The notes under the pieces: generated by a model
Told to the model about the DNA's origin: nothing
Database searches by the model: none
The model's input: the letters and a program-made list of their open reading frames with translations, nothing else
Made by a program: the position numbers and the translations under genes
Source of the DNA: Taibaiella chishuiensis
GTDB taxonomy: Bacteria; Bacteroidota; Bacteroidia; Chitinophagales; Chitinophagaceae
Direction of reading: 5' to 3'
NCBI RefSeq assembly: GCF_003014535.1
Contig: NZ_PYGD01000001.1
Span: 992,001 to 1,056,000 of the forward strand
DNA: 64,000 nt
Part shown: positions 4,691 to 30,769 of the stretch, piece after piece
Layout of the letters: every line of letters begins with the position of its first letter
How positions within the stretch are numbered: the stretch's first letter is position 1

Positions 4691-5074
4691 TTAGGAAATG
4701 GTCAGTGTAGCTGGTGCAGAAGGCATGGACGGCGTCTGGCTCCAGGTACAGAACACCAGCATCGGACAGAAGGCCACGTTACCCATAGCGAAAGGGGTAT
4801 AGGTCGGTGTCATACCCACGGTAAACAATGGTGTCGAGGGAGAAGACAGATCGTAAAACGTAGCGGCCACAGCGTGCCTGGTAGCGCCGAAATTAAAAGT
4901 TACGGTAGGGTTGGCGCCTAAGCCCTGGCTGCTGGTCGTACCATCGGAAAAGGTAAAGGTTACGGAAAACTGGCAAGGCTTACCGTTGTTTACGGTTAAT
5001 ACATTGGCTTTGCTTTCCTGGGCAAAGAAAGTGGTCATGGCGAGGGTAGCAAGGCCTAAAATTACTCTTTTCAT
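4691..5074 (-). CDS. Small secreted protein, unknown function
   Basis: The 127-residue protein starts MKRVILGLATLAMTTFFAQESKA, a Sec signal peptide. The mature part is short, Thr/Ser/Pro-rich and predicted beta-rich, with three Cys (PCQF, AFCPML, FCTWS). I recognise no family. It is the last gene on the minus strand after the RiPP exporter pair, separated from the HlyD gene by a 168-base AT-rich gap, so it may have its own promoter. It is not a RiPP precursor: there is no GG leader and the N-terminus is a true signal peptide. An immunity or surface role is possible but is speculation from position only. Confidence 0.6.
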   Translation of the reverse strand: MKRVILGLATLAMTTFFAQESKANVLTVNNGKPCQFSVTFTFSDGTTSSQGLGANPTVTFNFGATRHAVAATFYDLSSPSTPLFTVGMTPTYTPFAMGNVAFCPMLVFCTWSQTPSMPSAPATLTIS

Positions 5075-5242
5075 AATTAGTGATTTAAATGGTTAAAAAA
5101 AAGGTTATAATCACAATATATGAATTTGAAATTTCGCAATAAATAAAAATATTTTAAAAAATAGTTAAATAAATATTTGTATTCAAAAAACTCATATTAA
5201 ATGAGCAGGCTTGCCTTTAGCGGGTAATACATGTGTTGTTCC

Positions 5243-6553
5243 TTACCTGCGCCATTTACCGAATACTTTCTCAAACAACCGCTGCAGAACACTTTTGTCC
5301 TCTGTCAGGATCTCGCCGATACCGTCGAGTTGCGGCTGATCGGGGATAACCTTGCCGGCATTGGTCCTCAGGCCATCGGCCAGTTTGATCTCCAGCAGGA
5401 ATACGCTATCCATCGCTACCGCCGAACGCGACAGCACCTTACCGCGCAACATGCCGTATTCTTCAAAAGGGTAGGCCGTCAGTTTGATCAGCACATCCTG
5501 TCCGGCTTCGATCTTACCGGAACGGTCGGGGCCCAGCTCGCCACGCGCAATGTATTGCTGGGTGGGCGGCGTTACCATCATAACACCTTCGCCGGCCTGT
5601 ACAAACTGGTTTTCCTTCCAGAACTTGAAGAAGGTTACCACACCCTCGATCGGGCTTTTGATGATATAGGTCTGTTCCCATTGGGCATACTGGCCGCTGA
5701 AGCGGCTGGAGGCGTCGCGTATTTTCTGCAGCAGGGTGTTTTCCTGGCTCTGCCTTTGCTGGCTGATCTCGGCAATGTTCTTTTGGTATTCGGTTTGCTG
5801 CAGGTTATTCTGGATAATACTGCTGCGGTTGGTTTGGGTATTCATCTGCTGGTCCAGCATGGTTTTGCGCGAGGTCTCGTACTCGGCCCGCGAAATCACC
5901 CTTTCCTTTACCAGCGAGGAGTCGGCTGAAAAGCGGTTGTGTTGCAGCGCGAGCTGCTCCTGCAGCATACGTTCCCGCTTGTCGAGCTCGCGGTTGAGCG
6001 CCCCGGTATACTCGGCCTGTTTACTGAGGCTGTTCAGCGTGGCGCCATACGAGTTATGTTTCAGGTAAAAGCGGTAGTCCTGTACGGCCTGGTACAGTTC
6101 GGCATAATTGGTTTGCAGTTCGCCCATTTGCAAGCCGGTCGGTATTTCTATACGTTCGAGGGTTTGCGGCAGGGATACGGTGGTATCTATCGAGCGGGTA
6201 ATGGTTACGATCTTTTGCAGGTCGTCGTAGTTGGAGGCATTGGTAAGGATGCACAATACCTGTTCGGGTTTTACGGTCTCGTTACTTTTTACAAATAGCT
6301 TTTGTATGGGCAGGTTGCTGCGCGCCACCAGTTTTACCGGTGGTGTGCTGGATGAGATCAGTACCCGCGCCGGGATTACATCGGGGTATTTAAAGAAGTA
6401 GGCGCCGATGCCGATCACCAGCAGTAAGATGGCGACCAGGGTTATGCCCCGGCGTACCAGCCAGGCGGGCATTTTACCCATGATCTCCTGCACTTCCTCG
6501 CTTCTGACGTCTTCGTGCAGGGTATTTTCTAAATTATTTCTTTCTTCAGGCAT
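5243..6553 (-). CDS. HlyD-family periplasmic adaptor of the RiPP exporter
   Basis: The 436-residue membrane-fusion protein has one N-terminal membrane helix (RRGITLVAILLLVIGIGAYFF, ~residues 35-55), then a lipoyl-like half 'IPARVLISSSTPPVKLVARS', a long alpha-helical hairpin (~residues 150-300, rich in Q/E/R, e.g. ELDKRERMLQEQLAL), the second lipoyl half 'IKSPIEGVVTFFKFW', and a beta-barrel 'ARGELGPDRSGKIEAGQDVLIKL'. It links an inner-membrane ABC transporter to a TolC-type channel. It follows the C39 ABC transporter gene by 79 bases and is surely its partner. No TolC gene is in the window. Confidence 0.9.
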   Translation of the reverse strand: MPEERNNLENTLHEDVRSEEVQEIMGKMPAWLVRRGITLVAILLLVIGIGAYFFKYPDVIPARVLISSSTPPVKLVARSNLPIQKLFVKSNETVKPEQVLCILTNASNYDDLQKIVTITRSIDTTVSLPQTLERIEIPTGLQMGELQTNYAELYQAVQDYRFYLKHNSYGATLNSLSKQAEYTGALNRELDKRERMLQEQLALQHNRFSADSSLVKERVISRAEYETSRKTMLDQQMNTQTNRSSIIQNNLQQTEYQKNIAEISQQRQSQENTLLQKIRDASSRFSGQYAQWEQTYIIKSPIEGVVTFFKFWKENQFVQAGEGVMMVTPPTQQYIARGELGPDRSGKIEAGQDVLIKLTAYPFEEYGMLRGKVLSRSAVAMDSVFLLEIKLADGLRTNAGKVIPDQPQLDGIGEILTEDKSVLQRLFEKVFGKWRR

Positions 6554-6632
6554 ATGGTATTGTGTTGGTGATTGCCGCGCATCCCGGGCCGGGAGGCAGC
6601 GGCGTTTGTGGTTTGTTGCAGCATCCCGGGGC

Positions 6633-8828
6633 TTAGCTACCCAGTTCCAGCTGGTTCTTTACCAGTTCATAGTAATTCCCCCTGCGGGCGGTAAGCTGCT
6701 CGTGGGTGCCTACCTCTACTACTTCGCCCTTCTCCAGGACCACGATCTGGTCTGCATTTTTTACGGTACTGAGCCGGTGTGCGATTACCACTACCGTTTT
6801 CCCTTCGAAGAAGCGGTCCAGGTTTTCCATGATCACTTTTTCGTTGTTGGCGTCGAGAGCGCTGGTGGCTTCGTCGAAGAAGAGGTACTGCGGGTCTTTA
6901 TACACGGCCCTGGCAATCTGCATACGCTGCTTCTGGCCGGCGCTGATGCCGTTGCCCGAGTTGCCGATCTTGGTCTGGAAGCCCAGGGGCAGGTCTTCCA
7001 CAAAATCTTTGATATTGGCCACATCAACGGCACGCATCAGTTTTTTGCTGTTTACATTTTCTTCGCTTACCGAAATGTTGCGGGCAATGGTATCCGAAAA
7101 GATAAAGCCATCCTGCATCACGGTACCGCATTGGTTGCGCCACCATTTGGGCGAGATCTGGTTCAGATCTTTATTGTCGACGGTGATCTTACCACCGGTG
7201 GGTTCGTAGAACTGCAACAGCAGTTTAAGCAGGGTAGTTTTACCGCTGCCGCTGGTGCCTACCACGGCGGTTACTTTACCCTGCGGTATGGTCAGGTTTA
7301 CATCTTTAAGTACGTAAGGCGACTGCTGGCTGCCATACTGGAAGGATACATTCTCGAGGTTAATACTGCTCGATTCATTATCCAGGTTGGTATAGCGCAG
7401 TTTGTCGTCTTCTTCTTCCTCTTCCCGGTTGTGGATCTCACCAAGACGGTCGAGGCTGATCTTGGCATCCTGTGCGGCCTGTACAAAGCTCAGCAACTGG
7501 TCCAGCGGGCTGTTCATCTGGCCGATGATATAACTTACCGACAACATCATACCCAGGGTCATATTCCCGGTCATCACCTCGCGGGCGCTGATGTAAGAGA
7601 TCAGGATGTTCTTAAGCTGGTTGAAGAATACGAAACCCACCTGCTGGTACTGGCCCAGGGCCAGGCCCTTAACGCTGATCTTGTACAGGCGGGCCTGTAC
7701 TTTTTCCCATTCCCAGCGTTTAGCTGTTTCGCAATTGTTGAGCTTGATCTCCTGCATACCCGTGATCAGTTCGAAAAGCACGTTCTCATTTTCGCTCATG
7801 CGCTGGAACTGTTTGTAGTCGAGCTCTTTCCGTTTGCGCAGGAAGAACAGGATCCAACTGATGGCGCAAACGCTGAACAACAGGAAGGTAAGCAGGATCT
7901 TCCAGCTGTAAATGCCCAGTACGATGGAGAATACGAACAGGTTTACAAACGAGAAGAGGGTAGACAGAGTAGTGCCGGTAAGAAAGCTTTGTATCCTGCT
8001 GTGGTCGCCGATACGCTGGTGGATATCACCGATCATTTTGGTATCGAAAAAGCGGATCGGCAATTTCATCAGTTTGATCAGGAAGTCGGAAATGATACTG
8101 ATATTGATCCGGCTGTTCATATGCAGCATGATCCAGCTGCGGATCATTTCGATCGAGGTGCTGCCTACGAAGAGTACGAGTTGCGAAATCAATACCAGGT
8201 ATACGAAGCCGAGATTCTGGTGGTTGATACCGTAATCCACGAGCCCCTGGGTAAGGAACGGCGCCATCAGCGACAGGAGGCTGGCTACGATAATGCTGAG
8301 GAAGAGCTGTACTACGTATTTGCGGTAAGGGCGCAGGTAGCGGAACAGGAACTGGAAACCCTTTACTTTTTCATCGTCTTCTTTTTGCTGGTAAAAGGCA
8401 TCGGTAGGTTCGATCATCAGTACGATGCCTTCCGAGCTGGTACCCATCCAACTGCGCAAAAAGGTTTCCTTGTCGACCTTGATCAGGCCATGGGCCGGAT
8501 CGGCCAACAGGATCTTGTCGTTCTTTTTGTTGCGGTTATAGTTTTGCGGGGGCAGTACCACGAAGTGTTTCTGGTTCCAGTGCAGGATACAGGGTAGGGT
8601 CGCTTCTTCGTCCAGTTGTTCAAAACTTATTTTCGCCGCCAGGGTCCGGAATCCTATCTTCTCCGCCGCTTCGCTGATACCCAGCAGGCTTACGCCTTCG
8701 CGGGTAATATGTGCATTCTGTCTTAAAAAGTCCAGGGAGTAACTCTTGCCATAGTGTTTCGCGATCATGCGCAAACACGTGGGGCCGCAATCCATGGCAT
8801 CCAGTTGTTTATAAAAAGGGAAGGGCAT
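6633..8828 (-). CDS. C39-peptidase ABC transporter (double-glycine peptide exporter)
   Basis: The 731-residue protein has three parts. The N-terminal peptidase C39 domain (~1-130) has Cys14 in DCGPTC, His88 in QKHFV and Asp110 in LLADPAHG, a complete catalytic triad. A six-helix membrane domain covers ~150-460. The ATPase has Walker A GTSGSGKTT (from residue 524), signature SAGQKQR (~629), Walker B LFFDEATSALD (~648) and H-loop AHRLS. Such proteins cut leaders after Gly-Gly and export the product. All six precursor peptides in the window end their leader in GG, and this is the only exporter gene in the block. It lies directly after the LanB remnant and before the HlyD adaptor, probably in the same transcript. 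Confidence 0.95.
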   Translation of the reverse strand: MPFPFYKQLDAMDCGPTCLRMIAKHYGKSYSLDFLRQNAHITREGVSLLGISEAAEKIGFRTLAAKISFEQLDEEATLPCILHWNQKHFVVLPPQNYNRNKKNDKILLADPAHGLIKVDKETFLRSWMGTSSEGIVLMIEPTDAFYQQKEDDEKVKGFQFLFRYLRPYRKYVVQLFLSIIVASLLSLMAPFLTQGLVDYGINHQNLGFVYLVLISQLVLFVGSTSIEMIRSWIMLHMNSRINISIISDFLIKLMKLPIRFFDTKMIGDIHQRIGDHSRIQSFLTGTTLSTLFSFVNLFVFSIVLGIYSWKILLTFLLFSVCAISWILFFLRKRKELDYKQFQRMSENENVLFELITGMQEIKLNNCETAKRWEWEKVQARLYKISVKGLALGQYQQVGFVFFNQLKNILISYISAREVMTGNMTLGMMLSVSYIIGQMNSPLDQLLSFVQAAQDAKISLDRLGEIHNREEEEEDDKLRYTNLDNESSSINLENVSFQYGSQQSPYVLKDVNLTIPQGKVTAVVGTSGSGKTTLLKLLLQFYEPTGGKITVDNKDLNQISPKWWRNQCGTVMQDGFIFSDTIARNISVSEENVNSKKLMRAVDVANIKDFVEDLPLGFQTKIGNSGNGISAGQKQRMQIARAVYKDPQYLFFDEATSALDANNEKVIMENLDRFFEGKTVVVIAHRLSTVKNADQIVVLEKGEVVEVGTHEQLTARRGNYYELVKNQLELGS

Positions 8829-8839: not shown

Positions 8840-9475
8840 TTTTTTATGGCTGTCCGGGATTGGCAATGCCGTTCCAGGACATTGTTTAGCAACAGCGCGT
8901 ATCTTATGTGCTGAGCAATAAACAGCCGGTTCATAAACATATGCATCTAGCTGGAGCATAAAGGACAAAACCATTTATGACACCATTCTTGTTCCAGTTT
9001 TTTCCGGATCACTGCCCCCGGTACGGAACCGCAGGACAGTTGCTCCTGTTTCTATTTGTTGTCGTCATTTTCAGGGTTAAAAAAATGACGGGAAATAAAA
9101 GCCTGGCACCTTTCCCGGCTTCCCATCCACAGCTGTCGCCGTTCTTCTTACAGCGTAGTGTATCCGGGCGGCCCTGCAAAAACAGGTGAACCGGGGTGTA
9201 CGAAGGCCATCATTATAAAACAAAGATCCTGTCCTGCTTCCCGGTCCCTCCTGTAAGGTACCGGTGGCGCCTGGCGCGGGGCACAATAGCGCTGCAACAC
9301 ATGAAAAAGAATTTGCCGGGTAAACGGTCCTGTAACCCGTTTTCGGCGAACCGCGGCCAGCCGGTTGTACTACCGGCCCCGTAGTTTTAGCACCGCAATA
9401 TACTTTAAAATATAACCATTCGCTATACAAAGAAAAATTCCTTTTTAATTCGATACCGCAACCGTTCCGGTCCTG
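8840..9475 (-). pseudogene. Decayed C-terminal remnant of a third LanB dehydratase
   Basis: This stretch between LanC1 and the exporter encodes pieces that line up with the C-terminus of LanB1. In order on the minus strand: 'NGCGIELKRNFSLYSEWLYFKVYCG' type sequence (~9465-9380; LanB1 has LHSEWLYFKVYSG), then, in another frame, GYTT, RQLW...RERCQAFISRHFFNPENDDN (LanB1 KQLNDKYRNLQKAIARHLDTDQDDEN), and MFMNRLFIAQHIRYALLL (LanB1 MFMNRLFLAQQRKYELLI). The 3' frame has in-frame stops at 8947-8949 (TAG where LanB1 has Tyr in SYIHMF), 9052-9054 and 9148-9150. The two parts are in different frames and the middle of the domain is largely deleted. No N-terminal glutamylation domain was found. It is clearly non-functional. 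Confidence 0.85.
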
Positions 9476-9730: not shown

Positions 9731-10960
9731 TCAGGAGAAGAGCAAGGCCCGGTCCCATCCGCTATCGTTATACAGGCTGCTGATCAGCGACAGGCCGATA
9801 CCGCTTATGCCCACGAGGAAACCCTGCGAGCGCGTCCATTCTATGGGAACTTCGCCGGTATGTACCCGGAAACCGGCAAAGCCTTCATCGAAGACGCCCA
9901 TCTTAAGCGTTTCTTCCTGCCAGTAATTGCTGGCTTCCAGGAAGGTGGCATCGCCGGTATGCAGATGCATACGTTTAAAGATCTGCGCCAGGCCCGATGT
10001 GCCATGGCATAAGCCGGCATCGAACAGCGCAAACACCTCCTGGTCCTGCCGGGTGCAAAGTTCCAGCCCGTAAGATAAGGTGTCGTTGTATAGTTGCTGG
10101 TCCCCGGTTTGCAGTGCGGCCATCATCAGCGAAAGGGTAACGCCCGGATCGCCGTGGCACCAGGCCATACGGGTGATATGCTCCGACTCGCGTTCGTCGT
10201 TCACCATATGATAGGGGTAAAAATCGATGCCGTCGGTTTGGGTCCTGCAGGACCTGATATAGCTGGCCAGGCGTTGTATGTCGGCCGCCCGTTCCGGGGC
10301 CAGTACACCCGCCTGCTGCGCCAGGGAGAGGAACGCAAGGATACTGGAGAGGCCATGTGCCATGCCCAGTGTGGTTACCCGCTTCTCGGCATGCTCTCTT
10401 TTAAAACCATAGTAGTCCTGCCAGAGTATGCCCTGGTCGTGGTTTTCGCGGAAGGAGAACAGGATTTCGATCAACTGGTCGAGGTAGCTTTTTACACTTT
10501 TATCGGAGGCGTACCGCTCCAGGAAATAACGGCCCTTACCGATCATGCCCACAAAATAATCGTAACGGAACAGCGACATGTTCTCGCGTACCGCTTCGAA
10601 GATCAGCTCGTCGAAATCCCGGATGTTCTCTTCATAGGCCGGATCGAGCATGCCCGCGTTGACCAGGTGTTGCAGGCACCAGGCAATACCCGTAATACCA
10701 TGCGAAAAAGAGTCGTCTACCTCGATCTGTTCGGTCACTTCGATCATACGGTCGATAAGGCTGTACATACGGGCGCCCGCTGCTTCGTCGCCGGTGCATT
10801 TATAGAGATAACCATAAAAAAGAATAATGCCGCCCAGGCCCGAAAAAAGGGAGGGCAGTTCGATCTCCAGTTGGCCATCGAGTACCTGCCGGATCTGTTG
10901 CAGCTTTTGCAACAGGGCGGCGTTCAGGCTCAGGGGTTCAGCGCTGTATAATGTTTGCAT
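9731..10960 (-). CDS. Lanthionine synthetase C-family cyclase (LanC1)
   Basis: Starting at the ATG at 10960 gives 409 residues (MQTLYSAEPLSLN...), close to the other two LanC proteins here. An ATG further upstream (11053) would add 31 residues and a 124-base overlap with the gene before. Zinc ligands are visible as Cys268 in WCHGDPG and Cys318-His319 in LCHGTSG. GIxG(I/L)-type barrel repeats (HGITGIAWCL, GLGGIILFYG, GISGIGLSLI) mark the alpha-toroid. It adds Cys thiols to dehydrated Ser/Thr to form (methyl)lanthionine rings. The start overlaps the end of the ChaN/Ere-like gene by 31 bases, which suggests coupled translation. Its natural LanB partner is probably the adjacent pseudogene, so it may now depend on LanB1. 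Confidence 0.92.
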   Translation of the reverse strand: MQTLYSAEPLSLNAALLQKLQQIRQVLDGQLEIELPSLFSGLGGIILFYGYLYKCTGDEAAGARMYSLIDRMIEVTEQIEVDDSFSHGITGIAWCLQHLVNAGMLDPAYEENIRDFDELIFEAVRENMSLFRYDYFVGMIGKGRYFLERYASDKSVKSYLDQLIEILFSFRENHDQGILWQDYYGFKREHAEKRVTTLGMAHGLSSILAFLSLAQQAGVLAPERAADIQRLASYIRSCRTQTDGIDFYPYHMVNDERESEHITRMAWCHGDPGVTLSLMMAALQTGDQQLYNDTLSYGLELCTRQDQEVFALFDAGLCHGTSGLAQIFKRMHLHTGDATFLEASNYWQEETLKMGVFDEGFAGFRVHTGEVPIEWTRSQGFLVGISGIGLSLISSLYNDSGWDRALLFS

Positions 10961-12078
10961 AGGATAAGGTAGTTGAAATGACTGATATAAGGACCCGCGC
11001 AGGAAGCCGCTACGGGAATAATGCCTAAAGAATGGGTAAGCTGAGCCTGGCACGCTTCCAGGGTGGTGAGCAGCGCGGCGTTGCTTTTGCGGTAAGGCCC
11101 GTAGGCCCGTACGATGCCGTCGTTCTCAATCGTACGGCTATTGGCTTTGCCGGTAGTGGTATTAAAGTACTGGACGCCGGTAATGCAAAGCCCCCGGGGC
11201 ATCTGCTGCGACCGGTAGTAATCCCGGAGCTGACTGGCAAACATGCCCTTGCCATCGGCAGTGTTGACATGTGTTTCGCCAAACGAAGCGAAGAAGGTCG
11301 TGTGGGCCGGGTTAAGGTCGTATAACTTCAACATCAGGACAAAGTTCGCCAGCAGCTCATCATCGCGCGAGCCGCGGTAATCGGTATATGCGCTGGTAAC
11401 AGCCAGCAGCTCCCGGTAACCGGCTTTAAGGAGTTGCCGGTAATGTTGCAGCTCCTGCTGCAACAGGGCAGCGATTTTTTGGTTGTAATTACGGATTTGT
11501 TTTTTGCTGCCGGCTGTGCAGGCCGCGTGTAATAAGGGGATAAGCCCGTCGCCCGGCGCCTGTTGCCGTAATGCGGTTTCAAAGTAGCGCAGGCAATCAT
11601 GATAGGCTATGGTTTTGAAACCGGAAGCATCGTTGCCGATACAGAGGTCTATGCCGATAAAACGGATCTGCATACTATCGGGTTGCCCGCTGTTGAGACG
11701 GCGCAATTGCTGTAATAACCAGGTACTATGGCGGCTGTCGGGATGGCTAAGCAGGCTGTCGGTACCGGTTTGCAGGAAGAGATTATAGCGGAACGCATAA
11801 CTATGCGGCATTTCCAGGATAACATACCGTAATGCCCGCTCCCGGTGCAATTTCCTGATATAAATGAATTGCAGTACAGGGTTGATATCGATATTATGAA
11901 GTTCTGAAAGCAGGAAGAATCGCGCTTCGGGTACCGCATCGAAGTCCAGGCGCCGGCCCAGGCCGGCGGTGTCGGTATCTACCATAGCCTTGCTGATACA
12001 GGAACGTATATCCCGGGCAATGCAAGGCCGCCACAGGAGCAAGAAGCACAGGAAAAGAAACGGGGTGTAGCGGCGCAT
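10930..12078 (-). CDS. Secreted EreA/ChaN-like superfamily protein (Ere1)
   Basis: The ATG at 12078 gives MRRYTPFLFLCFLLLWRPCIA, a signal peptide. The upstream alternative start (a TTG at 12117) lies inside the terminator hairpin of the preceding precursor gene and is rejected. The mature protein (~360 residues) has the superfamily's acidic-His motif SELHNID near residue 60, a Glu in 'YVILEMPHSY', a Gly-Ile-Asp block (RFIGIDL), and a second late motif FGETHVNT. Families with this fold include erythromycin esterases, the haem-uptake protein ChaN and Tiki/TraB proteases. It lies between precursor 1 and LanC1. Possible roles are leader or peptide processing, or self-protection, outside the cytoplasm. 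No direct evidence decides this. Confidence 0.7.
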   Translation of the reverse strand: MRRYTPFLFLCFLLLWRPCIARDIRSCISKAMVDTDTAGLGRRLDFDAVPEARFFLLSELHNIDINPVLQFIYIRKLHRERALRYVILEMPHSYAFRYNLFLQTGTDSLLSHPDSRHSTWLLQQLRRLNSGQPDSMQIRFIGIDLCIGNDASGFKTIAYHDCLRYFETALRQQAPGDGLIPLLHAACTAGSKKQIRNYNQKIAALLQQELQHYRQLLKAGYRELLAVTSAYTDYRGSRDDELLANFVLMLKLYDLNPAHTTFFASFGETHVNTADGKGMFASQLRDYYRSQQMPRGLCITGVQYFNTTTGKANSRTIENDGIVRAYGPYRKSNAALLTTLEACQAQLTHSLGIIPVAASCAGPYISHFNYLILCKHYTALNP

Positions 12079-12091
12079 AGAAATAACATAA

Positions 12092-12123
12092 ACCCGGTTG
12101 CCATGTCGGCACGGCAACCGGGT
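12092..12123 (-). terminator. Hairpin after lanthipeptide precursor 1
   Basis: A perfect 11-bp stem ACCCGGTTGCC / GGCAACCGGGT with a 10-base loop starts 8 bases after the precursor stop codon. TTTATG follows on the minus strand. It is likely a partial terminator that lowers expression of the downstream genes. Confidence 0.75.
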
Positions 12124-19219: not shown

Positions 19220-19239
19220 TCCCGGCCCGGCCCCTGTAC

Positions 19240-19280: not shown

Positions 19281-19293
19281 ATAAACCTCCTGT

Positions 19294-21700: not shown

Positions 21701-21716
21701 GTAAACCCCATACCCC

Positions 21717-22442
21717 ATGATCAATTGTTTAATTGTAGACGACGAACAGCACGCAATTGATATCCTGACGCATCATGTGCAGCAGACCAATTTCCTCAAC
21801 CTGGTACTGGCCACGACCAATGCCATGGAGGCGCTCGATGTGATCAATAACCAGAAAATAGACCTGTTGTTCCAGGATATACAGATGCCGGAAATATCGG
21901 GTATCGATATGGTAAAGGCTATTAATGGCAAGTGCAAAGTGATCCTCACCACAGCCTATAGCGAGTATGCGCTGCAGGGCTACGAACTCGATGTGGTCGA
22001 CTTCCTGCTGAAGCCCGTATCTTTTCCGCGTTTTATAAAAGCAGTACAAAAGGTAGCCGCGCTGATGCCGCAACAGCCGGCTGCGCCTGTGGCCGAAGCC
22101 CGGCCGGAAGAAGATTTTATTTATGTAAAGACCGGTATAAAACACAAGGTGATCAAGATCAACCTGGGCGAGATCGACTACATAGAAAGCCTGAAAAACT
22201 ATGTGGCCATCTACCACGAAGGCAAGAAAACACTGGTATACCTGAGCCTGAAAGAACTGGAGGCCAACCTGCCTGCCAGCCAGTTTATCCGGGTACATAA
22301 GTCTTATATTATTCCCTATGCGCGCATCATGCGTATCGATGGCAACCAGATCATCCTGAAGAATGTGCAGGCCGATATCCTGCTGGGTGAAACGTACAAG
22401 GCCTTTTTCTGGGAGAAGATAAAAAACAAAACGATCGGCTAA
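21717..22442 (+). CDS. LytTR-family response regulator
   Basis: The 241-residue protein has a receiver domain (1-~120) with acidic pocket 'VDDE' and phospho-acceptor Asp in LLFQDIQMPE, the Thr of 'ILTTAYS' and Lys of 'LLKPVSF'. A short Ala/Pro linker and a C-terminal LytTR DNA-binding domain (~135-241: 'YVKTGIKHKVIKINLGEIDYIESLKNYVAIY', 'FIRVHKSYIIP') follow. LytTR proteins bind spaced direct repeats. The repeats before precursor 3 are a natural candidate site. It forms a pair with the kinase gene just before it and ends at a bidirectional terminator. Confidence 0.92.
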   Translation: MINCLIVDDEQHAIDILTHHVQQTNFLNLVLATTNAMEALDVINNQKIDLLFQDIQMPEISGIDMVKAINGKCKVILTTAYSEYALQGYELDVVDFLLKPVSFPRFIKAVQKVAALMPQQPAAPVAEARPEEDFIYVKTGIKHKVIKINLGEIDYIESLKNYVAIYHEGKKTLVYLSLKELEANLPASQFIRVHKSYIIPYARIMRIDGNQIILKNVQADILLGETYKAFFWEKIKNKTIG

Positions 22443-22513: not shown

Positions 22514-23551
22514 TCAGGATATAGCTGCCACAGTTTGCAGCTTGTTGTCGAGCTGTAAGGGATGATAGCGCCTGAACACCTTGCCCAGCAATACATCGGC
22601 GATCTGCTCCGATATTTTATGGTCAGCCAGCCGGTCCAGCCAGAAGTACTCGCCGGCCGAGTTGATCTCCAGGAAGTAGTATTCATTTTCCGGTGTAACG
22701 ATAATGTCGATCGCTCCATAATTGGCGCCATAGATATCCATCAGGCGCAGCAACTTCTCCCGCACGTCTGCGGGCAGTTCGTAGGGTTCCCATTGGGCCA
22801 GCAGTTCCAGTCCTTCGCGCCGCCAGTCTACTTTTGCATTGTCCATCTGCTGCGAATCCACGGCGAAGGTAAACACGGCGTCGCCTACGATCGTGACCCG
22901 CAGCTCGCGGGCCTTTTCTATTTTCTGTTGGAACTGCATGGGGCAATACTGCAGGCTGTCGATGCTATCCAGGTTGTCTTCCGTGATGACATTGGTAAAG
23001 ACTACATGCTCCCGGCCTTCGCGATATATGGCAAAGGAGCTCTGCATCTTTACAATAGCGCCTTCTTTATGCGCCAGTACAAACCGCCGCGCTTCTTCCG
23101 GACTGTTGGTGATACAGGTTTCCGGAACCTTGAGGCCCAGTGCTGAGGCGATTTTCATTTGTTCCTCCTTGCTGTCGAGCCGACGGTACTGGCTGAACCG
23201 GCCGATCTGGAAGCAATGCATGCCTTCGAGCATACCGAATAAGGTTTGCCGGATCTCGCCGTGTGCGCTCGACAGGTACTCGCCTTCGAGTTGTTCTTTA
23301 AGACCGCTGGCCAGGTTATGGCTGCGGCGGTACCACAGGGCGGTTATATCCCCCAGGTTTTCCCTTTTTCCTTCATAGTCGAGGTAGGTATGCCATACGC
23401 CGTTTTCGTAACAGGAGCTCAGGCCATAGGCCAGCGGGTAGCGGTCTACATTAAAGCGGATTACCTGTGCGCCCTGTGCTTCGAGCTTACCGGTTACGAT
23501 ATCGATGCATTCGTTGTCCTGGCTATGGGTAATGATGAGTATTTTCTGCAT
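22514..23551 (-). CDS. MvdC/MvdD-family ATP-grasp peptide ligase (second in operon)
   Basis: The 345-residue protein has a pre-ATP-grasp N-terminal part (KILIITHSQDNECIDIV; 'GDITALWYRRSHNL' around residue 70-80), then the ATP-grasp fold: 'GAIVKMQSSFAIY' (nucleotide Lys), 'QFQQKIEKARELRVTIVGD', and the metal-binding 'YYFLEINSAGEYFWLDRL' near residue 300. This pattern matches microviridin maturases (MdnB/MdnC, also MvdC/MvdD) which make omega-ester and omega-amide links between side chains. It ends the graspetide operon, 48 bases after the other ligase. Its C-terminal wording looks closer to the ester-forming type, but I would not rely on that. Confidence 0.9.
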   Translation of the reverse strand: MQKILIITHSQDNECIDIVTGKLEAQGAQVIRFNVDRYPLAYGLSSCYENGVWHTYLDYEGKRENLGDITALWYRRSHNLASGLKEQLEGEYLSSAHGEIRQTLFGMLEGMHCFQIGRFSQYRRLDSKEEQMKIASALGLKVPETCITNSPEEARRFVLAHKEGAIVKMQSSFAIYREGREHVVFTNVITEDNLDSIDSLQYCPMQFQQKIEKARELRVTIVGDAVFTFAVDSQQMDNAKVDWRREGLELLAQWEPYELPADVREKLLRLMDIYGANYGAIDIIVTPENEYYFLEINSAGEYFWLDRLADHKISEQIADVLLGKVFRRYHPLQLDNKLQTVAAIS

Positions 23552-23599: not shown

Positions 23600-24571
23600 T
23601 TATATTTTGCCGGCCAGCTTTTCGGCTATGGTTTCTCCTATAGGGTAGCCCAGGTCGCGTTGCAGCATGCCCCATTCTCCCTGCGGGTTTACTTCCAGGA
23701 AAAAATAGCGCCCGTCCTGGTGCCGGATCATATCTATCGCGCCGAATAGCAGGCCCATGTCGCGCATCATCAGGTCCAGGCTGCGCTGTATCCCTCCGGG
23801 TAACTGGTAGGCTTGCCAGGCAAGGGGTACATCGGTCGCAATGCGCCAATCCGTTTTCCCTTTTTCGGAATCGCCGGTATCGATCTTGCCGGCAAAGAAT
23901 ACGCCATCTGCATAAGCGATCCGGAGCTCATAGGCTTTGGGTATAAACTGCTGGAAGATCATAGGGCAATAGGGCAGGGCATCCAATTGGTCGAGGTCCT
24001 GCTCGCGGATGCGCGTGGTCGGGAACATAGCGCCGCCGCCCGACATACTGCGGCTCAGGGTGCCATGCAGTTTAGCGATCATGGCGCCCTCGCATTGGCT
24101 ATGGAAAAAATCCTGTACCTGTTGCGGGTCGTTGGAAAACAGGGTGGGCGCGATCAGCAGGCCGTTCTTTTGTGCCAGCTCGAGCTGTAGCGCTTTGTTG
24201 CCACCGATGCGGTGGTCCTGTTGCATAGGGTTCATCCAGGGCACATCACGCAGCGCATCGAAAAACAGGTCGCGCATGGTATCATACTCCTGGTAAAAGA
24301 TAGCCCTGTACTGCGGATCAAGTTCGGCAGGAGCCTGTATGCCCCATAGCTTGCGGTACCATACGGCGGTTACCTCGCGGGTGTCGATACTGCGGCCGTC
24401 GAGTAGCAGGGTAAAATTAAAAGGGTAGGCATTGCCGCCGAAGGCAAAAGATACCTGGTCGGAAAACCGGTCGGTATCGAGCCGGATACTTTCGTGGCCC
24501 AGCTCGCCGAGCCTTTTTTGTACGATGTCAATGTTATAGAAATCTCTGGAATGGGATAGGCATAAGATCAT
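23600..24571 (-). CDS. MvdC/MvdD-family ATP-grasp peptide ligase (first in operon)
   Basis: The ATG at 24571 gives 323 residues (MILCLSHSRDFYNIDIV). An upstream in-frame start at 24604 falls inside the precursor's terminator hairpin and is rejected. N-terminal 'DTREVTAVWYRKLWG' and the ATP-grasp parts 'GAMIAKLHGTLS', 'IFQQFIPKAYELRIAYADG' and 'GRYFFLEVNPQGEWGMLQRDLG' mark it as a paralogue of the next gene. Two such ligases side by side with a PFFxxFLE-leader precursor are the hallmark of microviridin systems, where one closes the esters and the other the Lys amide. Which is which cannot be told safely here. Confidence 0.9.
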   Translation of the reverse strand: MILCLSHSRDFYNIDIVQKRLGELGHESIRLDTDRFSDQVSFAFGGNAYPFNFTLLLDGRSIDTREVTAVWYRKLWGIQAPAELDPQYRAIFYQEYDTMRDLFFDALRDVPWMNPMQQDHRIGGNKALQLELAQKNGLLIAPTLFSNDPQQVQDFFHSQCEGAMIAKLHGTLSRSMSGGGAMFPTTRIREQDLDQLDALPYCPMIFQQFIPKAYELRIAYADGVFFAGKIDTGDSEKGKTDWRIATDVPLAWQAYQLPGGIQRSLDLMMRDMGLLFGAIDMIRHQDGRYFFLEVNPQGEWGMLQRDLGYPIGETIAEKLAGKI

Positions 24572-24595
24572 GAAATACCGGTTATAAGGGCAAAT

Positions 24596-24633
24596 AAAAA
24601 GCAATAGCCTGCCTGCCCGGCGGGCTATTGCTT
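24596..24633 (-). terminator. Intrinsic terminator after the graspetide precursor
   Basis: A 15-bp stem (24599-24613 with 24619-24633, one G-U pair) and 5-base loop runs into five T on the minus strand. It lies 17 bases after the precursor stop and before the ligase genes. Confidence 0.85.
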
Positions 24634-24650: not shown

Positions 24651-24914
24651 TTAAGCCGGGAGGCTTGTAATATCGTCGTCCCCGTCGGAAGGATATTTGT
24701 TGGTATGTGCTTCGTCGCTGTCGGAAGGTACCTTAAGGGTTACATGAATGGGGCCGCCATCGAGGTCGGAAACCTTGCTGGTATTGTCTTCCTGGTCGGA
24801 AGGGTATTTCAGGGTCTGGCCGCCCTGTACGGCTTCGGATTCAGATCCGGACAGGTTCTGGTCTTCGAGGAAATGCGCGAAGAAGGGCTTTTTAGCGTTT
24901 GTTTGTTTTTTCAT
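24651..24914 (-). CDS. Three-core microviridin-type graspetide precursor
   Basis: The 87-residue peptide starts MKKQTNAKKPFFAHFLEDQ. The leader motif PFFAHFLED (residues 10-18) is the conserved microviridin leader helix. The leader closes with EAVQGG (27-32). Three cores follow: TLKYPSDQED (34-43), TLKVPSDSDE (59-68) and TNKYPSDGDD (71-80), each fitting TxKxPSDx(E/D)(D/E). A second GG (residues 53-54, LDGG) sits between core 1 and core 2. In the family, Thr/Ser esters to Asp/Glu and a Lys-Glu amide create cage-like serine-protease inhibitors. No dedicated acetyltransferase or MdnE-type exporter is adjacent. The GG motif points to the C39 exporter. Confidence 0.93.
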   Translation of the reverse strand: MKKQTNAKKPFFAHFLEDQNLSGSESEAVQGGQTLKYPSDQEDNTSKVSDLDGGPIHVTLKVPSDSDEAHTNKYPSDGDDDITSLPA

Positions 24915-25133: not shown

Positions 25134-28100
25134 TCAGGACACCGGTACGGCCTTGGCTGCCTGCGCCACTTTGGAGGTGTAATATTTTTCCAGGAAATGG
25201 TAAATAAGCAGTTCATGTTTCCTTTGTTTGGCAACGAAAAGCCGGTTGAGGAACATGTGGATATAACTTGAAAGCAGGTCCCAGTGCTGGTTTTCGTTAC
25301 CCGACTCTTCGGCGGCAAGCCTTACGATCTCTGGCGCCAGTTCGCGGATGCGTGCTGAGCGCTGCCTGAAGATGTCGATCACATCCGCAATATCGTTCTG
25401 CTCGTCATCTTCATCGTTCAGGAACGATTCGATATCCTTCTGGAACCTGCGGTACTTATCATTCAGTTGTTTGTTCAGGAGTTTAGCGCCGCCAAATTCT
25501 TCTACGAAGCCCCGTTGCAGGTTGCCCAGCAGGTTCTTTTTCCATTCCAGGTTAAAGCCGAAGTCATCGAGCAGGATGTCGAGGCCGCGTGCAGCCAGCT
25601 TCCAGCGGTACTCTTCGCCCTCCGGCCCCTCCAGCATACTTACGATACCCAGTACGGCATGACTGTCGGCATCGAAGAGCTGTTCGCTCAGGGCCATGGT
25701 GCTTGCGCCGTAACGCTCTATTTCGCGGGTATAGGTATCGGTCTGTATCTTTTTGATCTGGCCTGCTTCGATATAAGGTTGCAGGTCGTCGAAGATCATG
25801 GTAAGCAATTGTTCGTTCTTCGAACGGTCGGCGCTGTTCAGGAACCGGAGCCTCAGGTGCGGGTTAGGATCGGCATAACGCAGGAAGAAGAAGGATTCGG
25901 CAAGACCTGCTTCTTTCCACTCCGGTATCTTTTCGGCAAAGTAGGTAGACAGCAGTTCTTCGGTAAGTGCATAACCGCAGTAGATCTTCACATACAGCCA
26001 TTCACTGCCCGGCGTATAGTTGCGGGGTATCGACTGCATCTGCTCCTGGTCGTGGAAGCGGGCCGCAGCCTTCTGTTCGGCGGTTACGGGTTTGTAGCGT
26101 AGCGGTATCAGCACTTCGTTGGTATACGCTCGGTTATCCGTATCGGTCACCATGCTTTCGTTTTCACCAAAGAGGAATTCCCGCAGCTTAACGGACTGGC
26201 GTTTCTTCACGAAGTCGAATAAGATCTCCAGGCTTTCGGGTTGTGTACAGTCGATCAGCAGTTCATTATCCGCATCGGCAATGGTTACCAGCGCCGGCAT
26301 ATTCCGTTCTTCGCGGTAGCGGGTAATATTTTCGACGATTTTATTTTTGTCCTTGGTCAGGGTATCCACATCTTTCTGTTTCAGCTCCCAGGTAGCCCTG
26401 CTGATGATGATGTTATGATACATAACGCGGGGCAGGTAAGGCTTGCCCGAACATACGCCCCAGTCCCAGTAGAAGCCGCTTCTTACGCCCTGCTGCTGCA
26501 GGTCGCAGAGAAACTTATAGGCGGGCAGGCTGTTATAGCCGTAGTTATGTGCAGAACTCAGCCGCGGTATAACGCGCTTATTCCATTTTTTACTTCTTAA
26601 AACGATATTGCCGCGCTGCACCGATACCATAAGGTCGGAAAGCGGCAACTGGTGTTCGGCGTCTACGCTCGCTACGCCCACATACGGAATCTCGTAAGGA
26701 CGCAGGATAGGCCGGATCAGTACATTGGTAGCCCGCGCCTCGGGGAAGTGTACCACCTCGGCAAAGATGGCATCCGGGTCGGTGGCTTCTTCTTCGCGCA
26801 GCAGGTCTTTTACTTTTTCGGTCATTTCTGTATCGCCGCTGCAGAAGCGGCCCAGCAGGTTGGCCGCAGAGGGGCCGCCCAGCGATTGCATACTGAACAG
26901 GTAATCCTGGCCTTCGGGCGCCCCGGGCGCCGCTTTGTGCAGGCTGCCGAAGAGGAAGCAACTGCTGGCAAAATTCAGGTTATCTGTTTTGCCGAAGGGT
27001 TTCAGGTCTTCGTCGGTAATGTGTACGGTGGTCAGCCGGTCTTTGATAAACTGCTCGTACTTGTCTAAGCTGAGTTGTTGTAACGGAGTCCAGTTGATGG
27101 TGCTGGGGCCATTGCTGCCGCCGCCGGCCATAATATCTTCTACGAAAGGCGTATGGAACGAGTTGTCGATACTGGCGCCGTAACCGATGCCGGTCTCAGC
27201 ATCGAGCGCCAGGTTCAGCGGTATTTCCTGGCCGTCGTACAGCTCGTTCAGTTTATTGCCGAAATTAGTAAGCTCTGTATTGCCCTGTGGATAACTGTTA
27301 CAGATGGCCAGCAGCTTGGAGAGCTTTTGTGTAATGTCGTTTACCATATCGGCGCTCAGCGTGCAGTGGCTGGTGCTTTTAAACAGGTCGATCTGCAGCA
27401 GGTCCTTGGGCAGGGCAATGGGAAAGTCGGTTTCGCATTGCTGGTGGATCTCCGAAAGGCGCTCCTGGTCATAATCCTGTTTGCTGAACAGGACGGAGAG
27501 CGCCAGCAGCTGGTCCCTGAGGGCTTTGGCATCGGCGATGCTTTCCAGCCGGTCGATGAGCAGGGGCAGGTTGCCGGGCCCGGTTATTTTAGGTTCCATT
27601 TCCGAGATCAGCAGCTGCGCGTCGATCAGTTCGTTCACAAAGCCTTCTGCTTCTTCCTGCGCAATGCTGTCGTCTTCGGCCAGGATCAGTTGTACCATCT
27701 CGCCGATCGTCAGGCCCGCCTGGGCCTTTTCGATGATCTGTTCGATAAACACCGAGTTGGTAATGGAGCTCAGCAGGTATTTACGCCGGTTATTGTTGAT
27801 GGTATATTCGGCGTAGCGAAATTTATCGCCGATCTTATACACGCTGTTATTGGTATAGAACCGGAGTTCTTTACGGATATATACCTCTTTGAGGATATAA
27901 CTGCAGACTTTGGTATAGTAGTCCATATCCAGCCTTACCTGCTGGATAGCCTCGCCGGGACCGTTTATGGTAAGCTGTGTTTCGGCGCCTATCGTACCCA
28001 GGCTACAACCGGCAAATACACCGTAAGGGGTGCTGCGGGAACAGGCGCGTACCCAGTATTTATATAAGGAAGACTTCAGTTTATTGATCTTCTTTTCGTT

Positions 28101-28292
28101 GAATTCGCCGGGTTGTTCGATAAACCGGTTCAGTTCTTTTACCAGTTCCCGCGAGCCGATGTACAAGGCATAAGCAAACTCGGGTTTGCCGGCAATCAGT
28201 TGTGCCGGATCTTTTTCAAAGATATCCTTGTATTGGGCAACCGGGAAAAGCGGTGTTCTTAAGACGAAAAAATCAGATGACGTTAGTGGCAT
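25134..28292 (-). CDS. Full-length class I lanthipeptide dehydratase (LanB2)
   Basis: The 1052-residue protein has the N-terminal glutamylation domain (YWVRACSRSTPYGVFAG near residue 75; 'SAHNYGYNSLPAYKFLCDLQ' ~575) and the C-terminal elimination domain starting 'SEWLYVKIYCG' (~760) with the canonical 'FFFLRYADPNPHLRLRF'. It ends SYIHMFLNRLFVAKQRKHELLIYHFLEKYY. It is clearly homologous to LanB1 but diverged along its length, so not a recent copy. It lies 214 bases after precursor 4 and a hairpin, and pairs with LanC3 and precursors 4 and 5. Confidence 0.95.
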   Translation of the reverse strand: MPLTSSDFFVLRTPLFPVAQYKDIFEKDPAQLIAGKPEFAYALYIGSRELVKELNRFIEQPGEFNEKKINKLKSSLYKYWVRACSRSTPYGVFAGCSLGTIGAETQLTINGPGEAIQQVRLDMDYYTKVCSYILKEVYIRKELRFYTNNSVYKIGDKFRYAEYTINNNRRKYLLSSITNSVFIEQIIEKAQAGLTIGEMVQLILAEDDSIAQEEAEGFVNELIDAQLLISEMEPKITGPGNLPLLIDRLESIADAKALRDQLLALSVLFSKQDYDQERLSEIHQQCETDFPIALPKDLLQIDLFKSTSHCTLSADMVNDITQKLSKLLAICNSYPQGNTELTNFGNKLNELYDGQEIPLNLALDAETGIGYGASIDNSFHTPFVEDIMAGGGSNGPSTINWTPLQQLSLDKYEQFIKDRLTTVHITDEDLKPFGKTDNLNFASSCFLFGSLHKAAPGAPEGQDYLFSMQSLGGPSAANLLGRFCSGDTEMTEKVKDLLREEEATDPDAIFAEVVHFPEARATNVLIRPILRPYEIPYVGVASVDAEHQLPLSDLMVSVQRGNIVLRSKKWNKRVIPRLSSAHNYGYNSLPAYKFLCDLQQQGVRSGFYWDWGVCSGKPYLPRVMYHNIIISRATWELKQKDVDTLTKDKNKIVENITRYREERNMPALVTIADADNELLIDCTQPESLEILFDFVKKRQSVKLREFLFGENESMVTDTDNRAYTNEVLIPLRYKPVTAEQKAAARFHDQEQMQSIPRNYTPGSEWLYVKIYCGYALTEELLSTYFAEKIPEWKEAGLAESFFFLRYADPNPHLRLRFLNSADRSKNEQLLTMIFDDLQPYIEAGQIKKIQTDTYTREIERYGASTMALSEQLFDADSHAVLGIVSMLEGPEGEEYRWKLAARGLDILLDDFGFNLEWKKNLLGNLQRGFVEEFGGAKLLNKQLNDKYRRFQKDIESFLNDEDDEQNDIADVIDIFRQRSARIRELAPEIVRLAAEESGNENQHWDLLSSYIHMFLNRLFVAKQRKHELLIYHFLEKYYTSKVAQAAKAVPVS

Positions 28293-28831: not shown

Positions 28832-30034
28832 CTAAGAGATCAGCAGCGATTCGTCCCAGTGCAGGGGCTCGTCCACATGGCGGGAGATAAGGCTAAGGCC
28901 CGTACCGGCGCTGCCATCCAGGAAGTCCCAGCGGTATTGCCATTTGTCGTCCTTGCCTTGCCATACGCTGATGCCGCGTTCTGCGGGATTCTCCGAGAAG
29001 CGGATCATTTCGTTGGTCATCTCGTACCAGTCCTCCGCGCATTTAAAAAAGGCGCGGTCGTTGGTGGCATGCCAGAACCTCAGGTACATGGCTGCATTGC
29101 CGGCTGCTCCATGGCAGAGGCAGGCATCCAGTATACCCGCCGATTCGCGGGTAACGCGCTTGGTATTGTGCATCAGTATATTCAGGGCTTTGGTCTGCCA
29201 GCGTTGTTCCTGGAACTGTTCGCCGCAATACCATAAGGCAATGGCGACATTGATATCGCCATAACACCAGGATATGCGGCTGTAGTTCGATTCGCCCAGG
29301 CTGGCGGGGTAGAGCGGGTCCAGCGGACCTGAGATCTTATTCTCGTGGTTCAGGATAAACTCCATCGAACCGTATACCAGTTCCTGGCAGGTTTTCCGGG
29401 CTATACCGGCTTTATGGATCTTGGCCAGTATGATCTGCATGGAACAGGTACCGTGCGCCAGGCTAAAGGCATCGGTGCCGGTGGGCGACGGCGGGTCGGT
29501 ATGATAATAGAAGATCGGCATGCTCAGGCCCTGCGGTGTTTGCAGGCAAACGGCGGATAGGCAGTTGACAAACTTTTCGAGATGTGCTTTTACCTCGGGC
29601 CTGTGGCTGAAGGGCACCAGGAAATTACAGATACCACCGCTGCCATGCAGCAGGTCGAAATTGTTTACCGACAGGTGGTAATCGCTTTCCATAATGGCGG
29701 CACGTATAAAGTCGGAAGCCAGGTCTTCGAGATCCAGTTCTACAAATTCGTATTTATGCAGGTGGTGCAGCAGCCAGAAGGGGCCTGTAAGCCCGTTGCA
29801 ATAGGTAAAGGTACTGGTGGGGCCGGCCTGGAGCTCGTTATAGAGCTCTTCCATAAAGGGGATGGCATTGTCCTGTGTATCGTCTACATACTGTTCGTAG
29901 TAAAACATATAGAACAGGGCGCCCCATGCACCTTTAAACATATTAGGGCCTGCTTCCTTCAGCAGTTCTTTGTCGGAGATGACACGGAGCAGATCTTTAT
30001 AGATAAGCTCCTGGTTTTTTTCTAGGGTGATCAT
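28832..30034 (-). CDS. Lanthionine synthetase C-family cyclase (LanC3)
   Basis: The 400-residue protein starts MITLEKNQELIYKDLL at an ATG. Zinc ligands are Cys257 in WCYGDIN and Cys307-His308 in LCHGAAG. The C-terminal repeat 'LDGSAGTGLSLISRH' completes the toroid. It lies between precursors 5 and 4 in the minus-strand order HTH-P5-LanC3-P4-LanB2, so it should act with LanB2 on both. Sequence between the motifs differs widely from LanC1 and LanC2, pointing to an older split. Confidence 0.92.
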   Translation of the reverse strand: MITLEKNQELIYKDLLRVISDKELLKEAGPNMFKGAWGALFYMFYYEQYVDDTQDNAIPFMEELYNELQAGPTSTFTYCNGLTGPFWLLHHLHKYEFVELDLEDLASDFIRAAIMESDYHLSVNNFDLLHGSGGICNFLVPFSHRPEVKAHLEKFVNCLSAVCLQTPQGLSMPIFYYHTDPPSPTGTDAFSLAHGTCSMQIILAKIHKAGIARKTCQELVYGSMEFILNHENKISGPLDPLYPASLGESNYSRISWCYGDINVAIALWYCGEQFQEQRWQTKALNILMHNTKRVTRESAGILDACLCHGAAGNAAMYLRFWHATNDRAFFKCAEDWYEMTNEMIRFSENPAERGISVWQGKDDKWQYRWDFLDGSAGTGLSLISRHVDEPLHWDESLLIS

Positions 30035-30188: not shown

Positions 30189-30213
30189 TAATCGTTTGTC
30201 GTGCTGGCAGGGT

Positions 30214-30441
30214 TTAAGATGCGCAGGCAATGTTTACCGATACCTCGTACACGGGGCAGCATTGGGTCAGGTCGATGCCCAGGCCAAGCGTCCGGCAGTT
30301 ATCATTATGGGTGGCCACTACGCAGCCTTCGTGCAGGGACGCTCCGCCCAGTATATTGTTTTGTGCTGTGTTGTTCAATGCGGCAAGGGTTGCTTTGCTG
30401 AAGGTCAGTTTACCGGATAAGTTCAGGGTCTTTCGTTTCAT
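30214..30441 (-). CDS. Class I lanthipeptide precursor 5
   Basis: From the ATG at 30441 (MKRKTLNLSGKLTFSKATLAAL) the peptide is 75 residues. The leader pattern LxxxK-xTLAAL is like precursor 4 and ends NNILGG at residue 33. The 42-residue core ASLHEGC... has five Cys (EGC, DNC, QCC, IAC) and six Ser/Thr. It begins 19 bases after the end of the small HTH gene, so the two are probably transcribed together. Confidence 0.86.
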   Translation of the reverse strand: MKRKTLNLSGKLTFSKATLAALNNTAQNNILGGASLHEGCVVATHNDNCRTLGLGIDLTQCCPVYEVSVNIACAS

Positions 30442-30460
30442 TGTTGGTTGTTGAGGTTGG

Positions 30461-30769
30461 TTAGTGTGTAACAAGGTACACGGGTTTGGGAATGCGGGTA
30501 CTTGCCTGTCCGCCGAGGATCTTAAGGATGTTGAGATCGCCAACGGTTATGCTAAAATTAACCTTTACATGATCGGTATAATAATAGCTTTGTGCCGAGC
30601 GGCAATATTCAATCGGTAGCCCGTCCTCGCGCAAACTGCGGATGATTCTTTTGGCTTGCCAGCCCGTAACGCCGATTTTTTTTCCAAGGAGTTGCGGGGG
30701 CCCTGTGGCTCTTCTTCTGATCAGTTCGTCGATGTACGCGAATGATTCATTGTGTTTTTTAATTTTCAT
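30461..30769 (-). CDS. Small helix-turn-helix protein at the head of the P5 operon
   Basis: With the ATG at 30769 (MKIKKHNESFAYIDELI) the protein is 102 residues. An in-frame start at 30874 would add a low-complexity Lys/Leu stretch. Residues ~13-65 (YIDELIRRRATGPPQLLGKKIGV...AKRIIRSLREDGLPIEYC) look like a winged helix-turn-helix of the HTH_11 kind with a wing 'RSAQSYYYTD'. It stops 19 bases before precursor 5. It could be a local regulator of the lanthipeptide operon. Family assignment is by eye only. Confidence 0.6.
   Translation of the reverse strand: MKIKKHNESFAYIDELIRRRATGPPQLLGKKIGVTGWQAKRIIRSLREDGLPIEYCRSAQSYYYTDHVKVNFSITVGDLNILKILGGQASTRIPKPVYLVTH

Follow-up and report, generated by a model that had tools for sequence, protein, structure and literature searches.

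In a 64,000-nucleotide stretch of the draft genome of Taibaiella chishuiensis (the window; G000:C1:992001-1056000, well inside a 1.78-Mb contig), genes for class I lanthipeptides, a microviridin-type graspetide and a peptide-linked sensor system surround a single exporter in which a C39 peptidase is fused to an ATP-binding cassette transporter (C39-ABC). We consider it probable that a system making several kinds of ribosomally synthesized and post-translationally modified peptide (RiPP) has its hub for processing and export in the window, with one C39-ABC for all of them. Three RiPP chemistries face this C39-ABC in the genome, because dispersed lanthipeptide-type, microviridin-type and grasp-with-spasm systems share a genome in which it is the only such exporter. 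An initial annotation of the stretch, which proposed that two unrelated chemistries use one processing and export route, saw only part of this arrangement: lanthipeptide-type precursors dispersed by the dozen over the genome, and six grasp-with-spasm SPASM maturases, face the same exporter. Its facts were right, and its sharing model is likely but had been anticipated in part in the literature.

The C39-ABC (6633-8828; features are numbered within the window and lie on the reverse strand unless stated) joins a PF03412 peptidase domain to ABC_membrane and ABC_tran domains, the architecture of a peptidase-containing ATP-binding cassette transporter (PCAT). A PF03412 search of the whole genome (5.84 Mb, 99.7% complete) found no other C39-ABC, so that the single exporter reported for the window holds genome-wide, and the second exporter beyond its edges to which the annotation had been alert did not come to light. 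The other match (C1:520792, L002) lies in an open reading frame (ORF) that has no ABC part and resembles a fusion of VKOR and thioredoxin, and we therefore rejected it as a second exporter for the graspetide. The C39-ABC is 84% identical to those of T. koreensis and T. helva. Beside it is an ORF (5243-6553), which we take to be the HlyD-type membrane fusion protein partnering the exporter, with 68-69% identity to the ORF adjoining the orthologous C39-ABC in both sister species. Directly before the exporter, tblastn detects a decayed LanB C-terminal remnant (8848-9445) in two separate pieces, 8848-9012 and 9365-9445, that match LanB2 at 989-1043 and LanB1 at 741-767. At this position T. koreensis and T. 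helva have an intact LanB, followed by C39-ABC and then HlyD, and the T. koreensis LanB is 56% identical to LanB1. The remnant gives the locus a look of insertion and decay, and the graspetide operon is unlinked from the exporter in the sister species, as might be expected from ordinary clustering of independent RiPP loci in a genomic island, with each chemistry having its own export and nothing being shared. We regard such clustering as quite improbable given that the genome search yielded no second C39-ABC, that T. helva has just one C39-ABC alongside LanB, MvdC/MvdD and one grasp-with-spasm maturase, and that T. koreensis also has one, its additional lone C39 domain having a lipoprotein-like start.

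Family profiles find all the components that had been listed for the window, namely five precursors with two intact LanB and three LanC, the microviridin-type unit with its two ATP-grasp ligases, and an S41/LytS/LytTR unit, and all six leaders end in Gly-Gly (GG) as had been read. The class I lanthipeptide precursors are P1 (12132-12362; leader end AVKGG, four core Cys), P2 (18198-18440; LVKGG, six core Cys, 32.6 bits), P4 (28507-28710; VVGG, four core Cys) and P5 (30214-30441; ILGG, five core Cys), and P3 (18959-19219, forward strand; QVNGG, 24.6 bits) is a GG-leader peptide with one core Cys. All five pass the cut-off of the class I leader family NF038153, P5 having been recognized from its sequence and scored (36.7 bits) in the genome scan. 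The intact dehydratases are LanB1 (12541-15648; 1035 residues; TIGR03891, and PF14028 in the genome search) and LanB2 (25134-28292; 1052 residues). LanB2 has both the N and C domains (PF04738, 1.4e-143; PF14028, 1.3e-65), the N domain of LanB1 being assigned by similarity only. Of the three cyclases, each of 400-440 residues, LanC1 (9731-11053; 2.8e-46) and LanC3 (28832-30034; 5.6e-31) match PF05147, whereas LanC2 (16648-17928), which is similar to LanC ORFs elsewhere in the genome, is recognized only by a LanM C-domain match (1.5e-14). The graspetide precursor (24651-24914; 65.9 bits on NF033738, cut-off 26) combines a leader of the PFFAxFLE type (PFFAHFLE...VQGG) with three TxKxPSD cores. 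Its MvdD-type (22514-23551; TIGR04184, 5.6e-129) and MvdC-type (23600-24604; TIGR04185, 3.5e-112) ATP-grasp ligases do not reach the curated equivalog cut-offs (429.9 versus 475 bits and 374.7 versus 425 bits, respectively). They are still clear best matches and we file them as MvdC/MvdD-like; the MvdD cut-off is passed by 0/294, 0/12 and 1/395 of the genomes searched.

In the mechanism that we propose, LanB1 and LanB2 with LanC1-3 would put lanthionines into the local precursors and, in trans, into dozens of scattered ones, and MvdD and MvdC would close the predicted rings of the graspetide precursor through ester and amide bonds. The C39-ABC, working with HlyD and an outer-membrane channel encoded elsewhere, would read the last ~15 residues of the double-glycine leader, mainly hydrophobic residues at -4 and -12, cut after GG whatever the core chemistry and export the product. 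P3, exported by the same C39-ABC, would be sensed by LytS/LytTR, with the S41 peptidase trimming or clearing it. What the sequences themselves show is the set of genes, the lone C39-ABC, the leader positions in common, the scattered precursors and the link between leader and exporter across genomes; catalysis, modification in trans, export by a common route and signalling are inferred from them.

LahT accommodates leader residues -4, -7 and -12 in a groove (PMC6363468). In the genome of the window, 51 of the 55 NF038153 matches listed reach the end of the model. Taken at their match places, among these matches listed the leaders have a GG end, Leu at -12 and I/L/V at -15 in 51/51 cases and V/I/L at -4 in 45/51, although the model itself favours the positions that it scores. 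For comparison, we selected graspetide leaders solely by the PFF..FLE motif and GG/GS; the resulting 33, from 20 loci, have V/I at -4 in 32/33 cases and a hydrophobic residue at -12 in 25/33. Outside these two common positions the leader families are unlike, and -4 and -12 fit a predicted C39 cleavage of the window leaders after GG.

The leader type also tracks the exporter across genomes. PF03412 matches occur in all 24 distinct genomes with MvdC/MvdD. Defining the window clade as C39-ABC proteins with at least 49% identity to that of the window over the stretch compared, we find it in 19/19 genomes with GG/GS graspetide leaders (the leader at L013 has GS) and in 1/5 genomes with non-GG leaders (G003, G085, G214, G228 and G292; the one is G292), an association with Fisher p=0.0005, uncorrected for kinship. 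A C39-ABC tree built by a quick method has two well-separated groups, the more distant comprising a single sequence per non-GG genome (five in all) together with the second copies of four GG genomes. Within the family sample, matches to C39 at E<=1e-20 occur in 95/294 genomes, comprising 8/8 with an MvdC/MvdD pair and 87/286 others (p=1e-4). The non-GG leaders also led us to reject GG as a universal feature of microviridin-type leaders in Bacteroidota, and the five Chitinophagaceae that carry them became our contrast group; their loci (L053-L057) are a useful natural contrast for studies of leader proteases.

Physical linkage is much rarer than co-occurrence. Our survey of MvdC/MvdD loci took in 25 (the window, L003-L017, L053-L057 and L085-L088), mostly with ~10 kb on each side and less at contig ends, L016 being represented by its flanks and not by a whole genome. 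L018-L022 were left out, their ATP-grasp proteins being only 28-31% identical and without an MvdC match; one of these, L022 of Pedobacter zeae, has a C39-ABC adjoining this ATP-grasp gene. A full C39-ABC and LanB lie near MvdC/MvdD in only 2/25 loci, those of the window and of genome G655, and we rejected the window-style linkage as a conserved arrangement. In the other genomes with coordinates, a C39-ABC sharing the contig comes no closer than 85 kb (G296) or 88 kb (G306), or the C39-ABC is on another contig. LanB is found in 10/20 distinct MvdC/MvdD genomes, once as a contig-edge fragment (12/22 rows with two duplicates; G328, G595, G655 and G498 lie outside this search).

These counts bear on whether the graspetide operon is a chance neighbour of the exporter, with leader removal and export carried out by other, unlinked proteins. 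In its favour, 23/25 MvdC/MvdD loci have no C39-ABC nearby, the leaders of the five Chitinophagaceae lack GG, and a non-C39 protease, NosP, is described for the leaders of class I microviridins (PMC13039773). We nevertheless judge it unlikely, given that the window graspetide leader has both GG and the hydrophobic -4/-12 pair, that GG/GS leaders go with a window-clade C39 in every one of the 19 genomes, and that a second linked locus exists in another family.

This second composite locus, in G655 (another family of the same class; C1:178201-193259, ~15 kb), contains a C39-ABC and HlyD, a LanB that is split, four small precursors with GG and a LanC domain of LanM-like type, as well as a graspetide precursor (NIKGG) with MvdC and MvdD, and a fusion of C39, VKOR and thioredoxin. 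Its C39-ABC is 60% identical to that of the window and its MvdD 44%, and the one precursor leader scanned is of the pinensin type. The two loci thus resemble one another in uniting LanB, a LanC domain, GG precursors, MvdC/MvdD and C39-ABC at close quarters, but the G655 locus differs in its split LanB and pinensin-type leader, and its genome has a second C39-ABC. The differences in LanB type, leaders and MvdD speak for independent assembly of the two loci. The fusion gene directly follows MvdD in G655 (L087:10610-12259), and the second C39 match of the T. chishuiensis genome, at L002, looks similar.

Elsewhere, C39 adjoins LanB in T. koreensis, T. helva, G300, G298, G305, G301 and G302. Six genomes (G296, G297, G299, G303, G304 and G306) have a window-clade C39-ABC without LanB, and the clade is therefore not tied to lanthipeptides alone. 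Small GG-peptide ORFs adjoin the C39-ABC in G297 (several), G303 and G304 (one each), and by the pattern used none does in G296, G299 or G306.

The larger part of the proposed substrate set lies outside the window. NF038153 detects 71 leaders in the window genome, 60 in T. helva and 98 in T. koreensis, with 0 matches in 14 control genomes, and a genome-wide search with PF14028 gives three LanB, of which the window contains two. The 55 matches listed of the 71, on 14 contigs, include P1, P2, P4, P5 and a peptide preceding the S41 gene of locus L052; 51 are outside the window, and the 50 not yet named are covered by 29 regions of the genome. LanB has 0 matches in these 29 regions, and LanC occurs in two of them (L120 and L129), where the LanC genes adjoin dispersed precursors with no LanB nearby; L120 also has a neighbouring ORF of 346 residues. 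Another region, L116 (G000:C3:255001-267000), has ten lanthipeptide-type precursors on both strands within ~5 kb and no LanB, LanC or exporter match. A separate pattern search of the 29 regions, requiring V/I/L/M/A at -4 and an LxLxKx-like motif, gave 57 precursors, and 48/57 of their cores have no other core in the genome at 50% identity, whereas 49/57 leaders have such a partner. No shared promoter of the form TTTG-N-TAnnTTTG is found upstream of these precursors (0/57). In six orthologous T. koreensis/T. helva pairs, picked by eye, the cores are conserved (pooled nonsynonymous divergence, dN, 0.18; synonymous divergence, dS, 2.4 and saturated), and these therefore look like maintained genes.

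Among the matches listed, the 47 out-of-window precursors with full leaders have no leader Cys and a mean of 5.5 core Cys. Such Cys-rich cores, together with the lack of LanB in the 29 regions and a ratio of three LanB to 71 leader matches, could mean that the dispersed GG peptides are disulfide-bonded or otherwise unmodified peptides that simply use the same exporter. We consider this improbable, to much the same degree as a chance-neighbour graspetide operon or slightly more so. Their leaders fit both NF038153 and the motif LxLxKx5L known from class I leaders of Bacteroidetes (strictly in 38/51 of those listed), LanC genes adjoin two of the dispersed loci, and every core (47/47) contains Ser or Thr as well as two or more Cys. 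Moreover, 18/47 cores have an odd number of Cys, which argues against an all-disulfide reading.

Given its uniform leaders and diverse Cys-rich cores, the dispersed system looks like a counterpart, with class I enzymes (LanB/LanC), to the prochlorosins, the class II products of ProcA, ProcM and a C39 transporter in Prochlorococcus and Synechococcus. Prochlorosins likewise have dozens of scattered double-Gly precursors with varied cores for few enzymes, with up to 83 precursors per genome (PMC10783134). As for prochlorosins, the precursors greatly outnumber the enzymes and nearly all of those listed (51/55) lie away from the hub. The Taibaiella system is not one of prochlorosins proper: these depend on LanM and a Nif11-type leader, whereas Taibaiella, a member of the Bacteroidota, has class I L1a leaders and LanB/LanC as hub enzymes (no genome-wide LanM search was made). 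Unlike in prochlorosin producers, graspetide systems share the genome with the same sole C39-ABC.

A shared exporter that removes leaders from all of these precursors is supported, and not proven, by the sole C39-ABC, the common -4/-12 positions and the contrast of 19/19 with 1/5 genomes. Besides the rarity of linkage, several observations weigh against it. The genome is a draft assembly in 24 contigs. The leaders differ at -15 (hydrophobic in 7/33 graspetide versus 51/51 lanthipeptide leaders), have a hydrophobic residue at -7 in only 2/33 and 10/51 cases, respectively, and eight graspetide leaders, from L016, L085 and L086, have Lys at -12. The association across genomes is confounded by phylogeny, the five non-GG genomes all being Chitinophagaceae outside the genus of the window; in G292 a window-clade C39 occurs although its graspetide leaders lack GG, and counted by genus the C39 test in the family sample is weak (4/4 versus 50/101 genera). 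At L074 (G297:C44:248001-268000, Flavobacterium), seven small GG-peptide ORFs lie near the only strong C39-ABC of a genome that has its GG graspetide precursors elsewhere. A sole window-clade C39 can thus have its own local GG peptides, and its presence is therefore not due to graspetides alone. As to the dispersed precursors, G174, of the same genus, has a C39-ABC but 0 NF038153 matches, and mean pairwise identity is 36% for leaders versus 27% for cores, a modest gap between values measured in two ways.

The sensor unit of the window consists of P3, an S41 peptidase (19294-20685; PF03572, 3.2e-12; relatives at 37-43% identity), a LytS-type membrane histidine kinase (20633-21700; PF06580) and a LytTR response regulator (21717-22442; PF00072 and PF04397), all on the forward strand. 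P3 may be a signal peptide, because it has one core Cys and heads this unit. Relatives of the S41 peptidase at E<=1e-50 occur in 2/294 family genomes (three copies in the genome of the window and one in T. koreensis), and at E<=1e-60 in one more genome, G644, of a 395-genome class sample. In 5/5 modules in which the S41 gene heads kinase and regulator genes (window 18959-22442, L052, L103, L104 and L109), a small ORF with a GG/GA leader directly precedes it, against a background in which such ORFs lie upstream of 16/93 genes of at least 150 residues in the module regions, the five modules included; several of the other genes so preceded are RiPP genes, and a few of the ORFs look spurious. G644 has a further S41 gene upstream that lacks a GG/GA small ORF. 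Four of the five modules adjoin ATP-grasp maturase loci, MvdC/MvdD in the window and grasp-with-spasm in three (the L104 ligase is just under the family cut-off), and the fifth adjoins a C39-ABC. Kinase and regulator are fused in two modules, of which the one scanned has a LuxR-type output and not LytTR.

Signalling of the ComABCDE/Blp type combines a GG-leader peptide, a C39 exporter, a histidine kinase and a LytTR regulator. The P3 unit differs from it in its Gram-negative host, its S41 peptidase and an exporter that it would have in common with RiPPs. From the synteny of the five modules, on which a quorum-sensing reading depends, the natural guess is a GG-peptide signalling circuit, possibly of a Gram-negative type. 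At a further locus, L136 (G000:C2:285001-292000), LytS/LytTR without an S41 gene is preceded by five GG peptides in tandem, four of which have similar cores of the form TSxGxCxGxxCC. More speculatively, and at somewhat less than even chances, Taibaiella may have a 'one exporter, many chemistries' secretome comprising dispersed class I-type precursors (60-98 matches per genome), both kinds of graspetide and GG signal peptides for the S41/kinase/regulator modules, which would set it beside the prochlorosins as a class I system that includes its own peptide signalling.

Sharing of a C39 peptidase is as such not new. It is stated to cut numerous other RiPPs and hence to be typically absent from ATP-grasp loci (PMC8939145), its use across RiPP families, graspetides included, has been reviewed (PMC10885120), and the tolerant C39 domain LahT150 has been applied to double-Gly precursors (PMC9576775). 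GG graspetides are known, and cleavage of a graspetide after GG by a C39 transporter is cited in PMC13039773, which also describes the features that the window operon shares with class III Bacteroidota microviridin-like graspetides, namely the PFFAxFLE leader, MvdC/MvdD, TxKxPSD cores and a GG leader. The operon of the window has no exporter of its own, and the C39-ABC to which it is linked is orthologous to one in a LanB-C39-HlyD unit of the sister species. The exporter resembles LahT/PCAT exporters, which cleave after GG with substrate tolerance (PMC6363468), but is here proposed to serve unrelated RiPP classes natively. Bacteroidetes class I leaders with GG and C39 are likewise known, with the same LxLxKx5L motif, GG site and local C39 as in the window (PMC7268733). 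The survey reported there, as far as the accessible portion of the paper goes, covered genes up to seven positions from LanC and contains no linkage to a graspetide operon; dispersed precursors fall outside it on account of that range. The accessible portions of PMC12328550 and PMC10352776 contain nothing on dispersed class I precursors, and in the open-licence literature we found no publication on these or on composite lanthipeptide/microviridin loci. The initial view that the arrangement is undescribed thus stands tentatively for the composite linkage and gives way for a C39 serving several RiPPs. What is new is the proposed class I hub with dispersed substrates, the recurrence of the linkage in another family, and the modules of peptide, S41 and kinase.

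If the proposal is correct, this would be, to our knowledge and in the literature searched, the first class I lanthipeptide system, outside cyanobacteria, whose substrates are dispersed in their dozens, and the first native sharing of one leader protease/exporter by different RiPP chemistries. Two questions become testable: how an exporter can read the leader while ignoring the core chemistry, and what purpose such varied peptide repertoires serve. The three genomes offer ~230 candidate class I substrates (71, 60 and 98 leader matches, most of them not inspected singly) and possibly a multi-class leader protease, and they suggest that cluster-bound genome mining would miss most precursors in such genomes.

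Four further ORFs belong to this part of the window. Downstream of HlyD is a small protein with a signal-like start (4691-5074; 0 Pfam matches over the cut-off). Among the LanB and LanC genes sit an ORF without a Pfam match and with an uncertain TTG start (10930-12117) and one for an erythromycin-esterase-like protein (15662-16651; PF05139, 3e-8). The last (30461-30769; 0 Pfam matches) encodes a small protein that by eye is helix-turn-helix-like and is not a precursor; it resembles, again by eye, the ORF adjoining the C39-ABC of G644 (L109:2903-3211), so that the likeness extends across two families.

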